Of a stretch of 64,000 nt of DNA, positions 47,731-49,840 are shown piece after piece. Position numbers and translations under genes: made by a program. Under the pieces are notes generated by a model that was not told where the DNA came from, did not search any database, and worked only from the letters and a program-made list of their open reading frames with translations. Position 1 is the first letter of the stretch, and every line of letters begins with the position of its first letter. Origin of the DNA: a bacterium DOLZORAL124_38_8 (GTDB taxonomy: Bacteria > Patescibacteriota > Gracilibacteria > UBA4473); the NCBI GenBank assembly GCA_002747745.1, contig PDQG01000005.1, positions 92,524-156,523 on the forward strand. The letters are read 5' to 3'.

Positions 47731-48129
47731 TTATTTATCAATTTCTTCTAAGATTTTCTCATAAACCCCTTCAGGATTTGTTAACACATCTGTATTCCAA
47801 AATCGAACAACTTTAATTCCTAAATTGTTAAAAAACTGGGTTCTAATTTTGTCATACTCTTTTGTTTCATCACTATTATGTCCACTACCATCAACTTCAA
47901 TAATTATTTTTTGAGACGCACAGTAAAAATCTGCAATATAGTTCCCAATAATTTTCTGCCTCAAAAATCGTACCGAATTTAATTTTCCACTTCGCAACAA
48001 ATCCCACATTCTTTTTTCTGCATCAGTTGGATTATTTCTCATTTTACGTGCACGAGTCTTTAAATCTTTATTATAAGACAAAAAATATGGCACATATGTA
48101 TTATTTTTCATAACAAACAAATAATACAA
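47731..48129 (-). CDS. DUF559-type (Vsr-like) endonuclease domain protein
   Basis: RKMRNNPTDAEKRMWDLLRSGKLNSVRFLRQKIIGNYIADFYCASQKIIIEVDGSGH. Confidence 0.85.
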   Translation of the reverse strand: MYYLFVMKNNTYVPYFLSYNKDLKTRARKMRNNPTDAEKRMWDLLRSGKLNSVRFLRQKIIGNYIADFYCASQKIIIEVDGSGHNSDETKEYDKIRTQFFNNLGIKVVRFWNTDVLTNPEGVYEKILEEIDK

Positions 48130-48292
48130 AAAAATATAAAATATTTAAATCCCCCTGAATCCCCCTTTAAACAAAGGGGGAGAAATTTTATTTCCCCTCT
48201 TTTTATAAAGAGGGGCTAGGGGTGATTAAACATTAAAAACCCACTATTCAAGCCGTTTTTTAGTGGTTTTGTAAAAAAGTGTGAAAAAAGTT

Positions 48293-48321
48293 TTGACAAA
48301 GGAGTGAAGTTTGCATATAAT
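48293..48321 (+). promoter_or_regulatory. Consensus sigma70-type promoter TTGACA-N17-TATAAT
   Basis: TTGACA 48293-48298, TATAAT 48316-48321, 17-bp spacer. Confidence 0.9.
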
Positions 48322-48327
48322 GACATG

Positions 48328-49159
48328 AACAGTTCGAAAAAGAGGCTGCGATGACGCAAAGGCGAATAATTCCTTCCTTCTCTAGTAGAACTTGTTCCCC
48401 TCTTAGATCTTTCAAATCAACAGAAACATATAAGATTTCACCTACTAGTGAGAGAGTATTGAGTTTATTTGGTTCTTTTCCAAGTAGATTCAACCACTCT
48501 CCGCTGTGCGATGACGTGCCCCGTGAGTAACCCTTATGGACGCATGCCAATAAAACGCGTGAGATTGGCTGTTTTCGGGATTTTTTCTGGATAAGACGAC
48601 TGTTACGATTTTGTAATTAACGACTTAATCTTGAGATCTGTGATTCTTTGATACTGAGTTTATGCTCGGTATGAATCCATCCTCTTCCCATCTTTAAGCC
48701 GCTAATCTAACTCGCAAGAGCCGTTTTATTGAAAAATCTTGTAAACCCTATAAAAACCTTTTTATTCCCAATCAGTTTTCCTGATTTTAATATCAACCTT
48801 GTTTTTAACTCGCGCTCATAGATTGAGTTTTTAAAAGCCAACCAAAAATAAGTCGGACAACAACAAGCGAATAAAAAAATCCAAACAAAATGAATGAGGT
48901 AAGAGTTATTTCATTTTTGTCCGGATCCTTTCCAAGAATTATACGAATTATAAATCAAGAAAGTGGTTTTTGTTTATCAAGTAAACCAACAGTCCGTAGA
49001 TTAAATTCTTTTACTTAAAAAGTCAATTTATTTCTACATATGGATGCCGAACGAGGAAATGCGGTTAAAAAGATTTCCAGAGCATGGCTTTGAGCGTCGG
49101 TAGTCCCGACATTCATTTATAAAAACACCCTTCAGGATTAGCAGATGGGTGTTTTTTTT
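48328..49159 (+). ncRNA. Candidate large structured non-coding RNA, family unassigned
   Basis: Perfect promoter, no convincing plus-strand ORF, multiple helices with G-U wobbles, GNRA hairpin, terminator at 49121-49159. Confidence 0.6.
49121..49159 (+). terminator. Rho-independent terminator
   Basis: acaccc...gggtgt stem followed by T8. Confidence 0.75.
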
Positions 49160-49378
49160 GTTTTTAATGCCTGTTTCCGAACAGAGGTAAATAAATTCGC
49201 GCAAAAACCTCGTTCCCACGGAGGTGGGAATCTTTTAGAAGTGTTTTTGGATTCTGGACAAGCCAGAATGACAGAACATTTTTTAAAACTATCGAACGAA
49301 ATAGATTAAATTACTTTGTTTGACCATTCTATATTCATCTTTAAAATTTTATTAAGGTATTTTTTAATAAATAAATTT

Positions 49379-49840
49379 ATGAAACAACTATTTGTCGTAT
49401 TATTAATGGGGTTGTTAACCACGGCTTGTATGCCAAAACAAGAAAAACCAGTTCAATCTGAAATTAAAAATGAAGTGGTATCAACCAACACAGAATCAAT
49501 GGAAGTAAAAAAATCAGAACCATTAAAAATTGAAGTATTGCAAGACACCAAAGGTGGAAAGAAGGCGAAGGTTGGAGATAAAGTAGTCGTACACTACGTT
49601 GGAACGCTTACTGATGGAACAAAATTTGATTCTTCCGTTGACCGCAAGGTGCCATTTGAATTTAATTTAGGAGCGGGACAAGTAATTAAAGGTTGGGATC
49701 AAGGAGTAGAAGGAATGAAAGTAGGGGAACGACGGAAATTAACCATCGCGCCAGAGTTGGCTTACGGAAATATGGCTTTGCCAGGTATTCCAGCTAATTC
49801 TACTTTGGTGTTTGAAGTGGAATTATTAGAAATTAAATAA
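49379..49840 (+). CDS. FKBP-type peptidyl-prolyl isomerase lipoprotein
   Basis: Lipobox [33 protein letters not shown]...[36 protein letters not shown]. Confidence 0.94.

Follow-up and report, generated by a model that had tools for sequence, protein, structure and literature searches.

To our knowledge, few structured bacterial RNAs longer than 500 nt are known beyond rRNA and the group I and II introns. Three large ornate examples, GOLLD, ROOL and OLE, are still poorly understood in function (PMC12286853). Lineage-restricted large orphan motifs have also come out of GC-IGR screens, an example being the smtA motif ('Soda Lake RNA', >350 nt), which is found only in Thioalkalivibrio (PMC11109978).

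The locus examined here lies in a 64,000-nt stretch of DNA, termed the window, to which coordinates refer unless a contig is named. A noncoding transcript of ~830 nt is predicted at 48327..49158 on the plus strand, based on the distance after the −10 box to the terminator, with which a copy comparison and the fold z-score agree. The transcript would probably represent a large bacterial RNA not described before. In size, extensive secondary structure and lack of a known function it resembles GOLLD, many members of which exceed 800 nt (PMC12286853). GOLLD has been reported from phages and prophages, frequently close to tRNA islands (PMC12286853), whereas here the nearest tRNA found is ~4.4 kb away and the neighbouring genes that were examined are of ordinary cellular kinds. 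With ROOL it shares being large, free-standing and of unknown function (PMC12286853, PMC5643018), but the sequences are unrelated as far as tested; with OLE it shares the character of a large ornate bacterial RNA (PMC12286853). Unlike these three, the present RNA has no Rfam match. The smtA motif is likewise a large structured RNA candidate of one lineage, but is supported by covariation (PMC11109978), whereas the present RNA has a predicted fold and two copies in one genome. By analogy, it may work like GOLLD, ROOL and OLE, which does not imply membership with them.

Known RNA families and homologue searches

The first-pass annotation had proposed a large ncRNA that stands alone and belongs to no recognised family, and had named cmscan against Rfam as a check, one capable of overturning the proposal. 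With family membership defined as a covariance-model score at or above the gathering threshold in Rfam 15, none of 4227 families qualified in the RNA region, and the whole window gave two tRNAs and nothing else. The proposal thus survived this check, and comparison with a second copy (below) adds support. A relaxed scan of 48150-49250 returned chance-level matches only, from which tmRNA, RNase P, 6S, GOLLD, ROOL, OLE and HEARO were all absent; the GOLLD, ROOL and OLE models were unmatched in the RNA region at E up to 5. Using ARAGORN, no tmRNA (tRNA-like domain plus tag reading frame) was found at the locus, nor was the RNase P P4 core (GAGGAAAGUC...ACAGAA) present there; the GAGGAAAGTC motif occurs at C4 ~241236 only, where RF00010 matches with 111.8 bits. 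The hallmarks of tmRNA and RNase P RNA had been reported missing from the locus, and both RNAs indeed map to contig C4 instead, each above gathering score (tmRNA, c60266-60678; class A RNase P RNA, 240904-241267, minus strand).

The host genome, from an uncultured bacterium, comprises 909,522 bp in 10 contigs with 37.8% GC. Its SecY shares 69% identity with the SecY of a Candidatus Gracilibacteria MAG (JALVIB01), on which basis the genome is assigned to Gracilibacteria within Patescibacteria; its family relatives are distant (RsmF identity 42-56%). BLAST searches with the RNA found zero homologues in 19 other family genomes or in 353 class genomes, and chance matches only in 17 named relatives, while its 5′ half gave a single 23-nt match in 380 phylum genomes; two candidates were scored per genome in the class and phylum searches, and diverged homologues may have escaped these. 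Class matches at E 1e-3 to 1e-6 were short and AT-rich; two of them were inspected and fell within long open frames, one dnaN-like. Phage, plasmid and E. coli collections held zero homologues, and exact patterns run on viral and genome contigs gave one chance match, in a phage coding region, and otherwise none. Searching with a covariance model built on the central arm (48511-48735) gave nothing in class, family or named Gracilibacteria loci. Among relatives, neither the intergenic regions adjoining FKBP and RsmF nor the perfect-promoter loci contained a comparable RNA. As a positive control, BLAST with the genome's RNase P RNA gave matches in 14/19 family relatives; therefore, the RNA is either absent from these relatives or evolving much faster than RNase P RNA.

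Transcription signals, coding potential and the second copy

On re-reading, the perfect promoter claimed at 48293-48321 was exact: a −35 box TTGACA (48293..48298) and a −10 box TATAAT (48316..48321), both plus-strand exact consensus, are separated by 17 nt and unchanged in copy 2. Only six perfect TTGACA-N16-18-TATAAT sites occur in the whole genome, two of which head the two copies of the RNA. The intrinsic terminator (49121..49158, plus strand) is present where it had been placed, with a stem at 49121-49130/49147-49156 followed by a T-tract to 49158. The consensus sigma-70 promoter would drive the RNA and the terminator would end the transcript. An upstream hairpin, AAAACCCACTA...TAGTGGTTTT (48236..48272, no strand assigned), was read directly from the sequence and is mostly the same in copy 2 (T48267C); judged in this way, and not from terminator-scan output, it is probably a terminator that would shield the RNA unit from transcription arriving upstream. 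Leaving out rRNA, contig ends and dispersed-repeat arrays, the RNA region is the longest ORF-free stretch of the genome. The locus is thus a free-standing unit with promoter and terminator and without an ORF, as in large structured bacterial ncRNAs.

The earlier statement that no convincing plus-strand ORF lies between promoter and terminator agrees with codon usage and Pfam. Apart from one 59-aa frame considered below, frames inside the RNA region have codon usage like off-frame sequence, and six-frame read-through gave zero Pfam matches, on which ground a decayed protein gene was rejected. In some Gracilibacteria TGA is read as glycine. No tRNA-Gly(UCA) was found when looked for in this genome, which indicates the standard code; with table-11 genes also being long, an ORF hidden by TGA=glycine was rejected, and translation with code 25 makes plus-strand frames of the region no longer.

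Several other elements were noted. A gene for a DUF559-family protein (47731-48129, minus strand) lies directly upstream of the RNA and is oriented against it; the protein is also a weak match, below cut-off, to a restriction-endonuclease-like family (MTES_1575). Also upstream, 48150-48224 is a hairpin-rich repeat (TCCCCCTTTAAACAAAGGGGGA...) that recurs in part at other genomic sites. A dispersed intergenic repeat, CTCGTTCCCACGGAGGTGGGAATC...TTCTGGACAAGCCAGAATGACAG, occupies 49201-49275; it occurs at ~25 genome places, often near contig ends (e.g. C2:25904-25988, C7:184-248 and C6:155498-155571), and belongs to larger, composite arrays that span about 150-500 bp. At L095 3240-4526 (G017:C6), two similar units lie ~1.08 kb apart, the contig ending inside the second. 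Both carry a perfect promoter (TTGACA-N17-TATAAT) and a short hairpin-terminator, and an inverted repeat lies close to each; they have no Rfam match and are unrelated in sequence to the ~830-nt RNA. A leader-like motif, TTTGAACGTACTCATTTGAGACCC...CGGGTACTCAGGGAGACATC(A/C)CAAGGCCA, occurs twice at L091 1505-2130 (G009:C31), at the starts of putative transcripts upstream of small frames, with no Rfam match at gathering.

BLAST of the RNA region against its own genome found two further partial matches: C5:45274-45491 (plus strand), equal to window 48206-48424, and C2:38683-38018 (minus strand), equal to window 48681-49348. Both terminate exactly at contig ends, the simplest reading being that they are one second copy that broke the assembly; its middle 256 nt (48425-48680) are unassembled. 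Its neighbours differ from those of copy 1, with a citrate-transporter-family protein (CitMHS) on C5 and, on C2, a 166-aa putative exported protein and then a PurF-like protein; the PurF-like label and the signal peptide of the 166-aa protein are presumed here, being named from sequence alone.

Substitutions between the copies number 3/538 in the RNA body (48327-48424 plus 48681-49120) and 16/236 in the flanks (48226-48292 plus 49167-49335; Fisher p = 1.4e-6). The promoter spacer carries 3/17 substitutions, with both hexamers identical, and the terminator a single change (49146 T to A), the copy-2 stem being longer. A two-boundary change-point model, given difference positions only and so blind to promoter and terminator, placed the start of the conserved block at 48315-48397 and its end at 49091-49157 (95% intervals), with a ln Bayes factor of 7.8 over a single rate. 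The same limits follow from the positions of promoter and terminator. Conservation is therefore confined to the transcript, as for a large structured bacterial ncRNA, in a comparison of two copies only. These sequence comparisons give good support to a genuine noncoding RNA gene that stands free and is under constraint.

Predicted fold

The 835-nt transcript has a minimum free energy (MFE) of −211 kcal/mol and a z-score of −5.7 (20 shuffles, terminator included). Without the terminator, z was −4.1 for the plus strand and −3.1 for the minus strand; 50 random 792-nt genome windows gave a mean of −0.9 (sd 1.25, lowest −4.0). That the lowest random window matches the value of −4.1, and that the minus strand also folds well, counts against the reading as a structured RNA gene. 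Within 48401-48580, the local z was −4.8/−4.5 for the plus strand and −1.3/−2.0 for the minus strand. The plus-strand preference previously suggested from G-U pairs is thus clear locally and modest over the whole RNA. Overall, modelling gives a fold more stable than expected, and a global structure is plausible.

Eight helices had been proposed, of which five agreed with the fold when the full transcript was refolded and three did not. In the refolded plus-strand RNA, a 5′ terminal stem, GAACA-GUUC/GAAC-UGUUC (48327..48397, P 0.77-0.87), begins at the predicted first nucleotide and is followed by a strong hairpin (48452..48501, P 0.99) with loop UUCUUUU, in which the proposed 6-bp GAGAGU/ACUCUC helix and 14-bp hairpin were both recovered at P 0.99. 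A central multi-branch domain (48503..49088) appears in the MFE structure, possibly closed by a long-range helix, GCUGUGC/GCAUGGC (48503-48509/49082-49088; MFE, P ~0.5). Within it are predicted a hairpin CGUGC...CCGUGAG/CUUAUGG...GCAUG (48515..48546, P 0.97-1.00) and an arm (48548..48731, P 0.90-0.92) of a 10-bp helix, CAAUAAAACG/CGUUUUAUUG, and an 8-bp helix, AGAUUGGC/GCUAAUCU. The hairpin GAUUC-AUACUGAGU/GCUCGGUAU-GAAUC (48642..48677, P 0.78-0.99) reproduces the proposed GAUUC+AUACUGAG/CUCGGUAU+GAAUC helix at the same probabilities, and the proposed GUCGG/CCGAC helix (P 0.94) recurs in a hairpin UGAG-GUCGG/CCGAC-UUCA (49091..49115, P 0.80-0.94). The GCAA hairpin was weaker (P 0.45) and part of the MFE. 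The remaining three were disfavoured, namely GCCAAU/AUUGGC (P 0.01), CGGACAA/UUGUCCG (P 0.002) and GGAAAU/AUUUCC (P 0.06), forcing of which costs +4.3, +5.1 and +2.9 kcal/mol, respectively. The RNA would most likely fold into a 5′ hairpin set and a large multi-branch domain closed by the long-range helix. The three body differences between the copies have unpaired probabilities of 0.90, 0.66 and 0.98, relative to a mean of 0.40; such mostly unpaired positions fit the modelled fold, although three sites are only suggestive.

Alternative explanations and likely role

Similarity of the two RNA bodies could also reflect not function but gene conversion, or a noncoding repeat, neutral or selfish, that was duplicated recently. 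The genome is rich in dispersed intergenic repeats, which also touch the RNA flanks, and the element was not found in any relative searched. Recency alone does not explain the similarity, because the flanks, part of the same duplicated block, have diverged more than tenfold further than the body. The coincidence of the conserved limits with promoter and terminator, the hexamers that stay unchanged though their spacer drifts, and a block without visible transposase or terminal repeats argue the same way. Gene conversion could mimic purifying selection, but its tract would need, by chance, to stop close to the transcript limits on both sides, and we regard this explanation as unlikely. Far less probable is a highly diverged tmRNA, RNase P RNA, group I/II intron, OLE, ROOL, GOLLD or HEARO invisible to Rfam models. 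RNase P RNAs of some Patescibacteria do score under model thresholds (PMC8172020), but here the class A RNase P RNA and tmRNA were located elsewhere above gathering score, and the relaxed scan of the region returned none of these families; of the explanations weighed, we give this one the least credence.

Downstream, and outside the RNA unit, lies a gene for an FKBP-type peptidyl-prolyl isomerase (49379..49840, plus strand; PF00254, E 1e-38). The next gene is co-directional in both copies and starts just beyond the duplicated block, as would suit a long 5′ leader or attenuator of FKBP in copy 1 and of the 166-aa putative exported protein in copy 2. Against this, RNA and gene are set apart in both copies by a terminator with a T tail, a dispersed repeat and a promoter of the gene's own, the latter being TTGACC-N16-TAAAAT ahead of FKBP (49320..49347, plus strand) and, read from the copy alignment, TTGACC-N17-TAAAAT ahead of the different gene of copy 2. 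Pfam gives no match for the copy-2 gene, which means that the two next genes do not share a recognised family, and family relatives lack a long ORF-free gap upstream of FKBP. With the RNA unit INDEPENDENCE from the next gene, and the dispersed repeat and separate promoter between, a long leader is therefore very unlikely. A role as mRNA for small proteins, alone or alongside an RNA function, is if anything a shade less credible: the 59-aa plus-strand frame (48351-48530) has an SD-like AGAGG five bases ahead of its ATG, but its codon score of −0.435 (genes, 0.352 ± 0.178) falls under every one of 800 sampled real gene segments, it crosses the strongest hairpin of the RNA, and it has no Pfam match.

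We therefore return to the free-standing gene, and consider it likely that the locus encodes a folded, trans-acting structured ncRNA of ~830 nt, present in two copies, each with a sigma-70 promoter and an intrinsic terminator. Transcription, global fold, trans action and molecular role are what we infer for it. Antisense pairing of the RNA to gene starts showed no excess over controls. A trans-acting folded RNA appears most likely because the unit is strong and stands alone, is highly structured, exists in two copies and has neither coding signal nor antisense excess; the RNA would act as a scaffold or as a binder of protein, ribosome or RNA, a role as leader or messenger being disfavoured relative to trans action. 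More tentatively, and as a possibility short of probable, it may represent a new class of strongly expressed, ~830-nt trans-acting structured RNA, held in two copies by one lineage of Gracilibacteria-class Patescibacteria and unlike described bacterial RNAs in its role, which could, for instance, be that of a homo-oligomeric scaffold or of an RNA associated with the ribosome.

Comparison of copies within a genome can expose lineage-specific RNA genes of this kind, which comparative screens miss because no homologue is sampled. Retention of the duplicate in a reduced genome of 0.9 Mb, with ~tenfold conservation over its flanks, suggests that the RNA is important to its host, which has otherwise lost a great deal.
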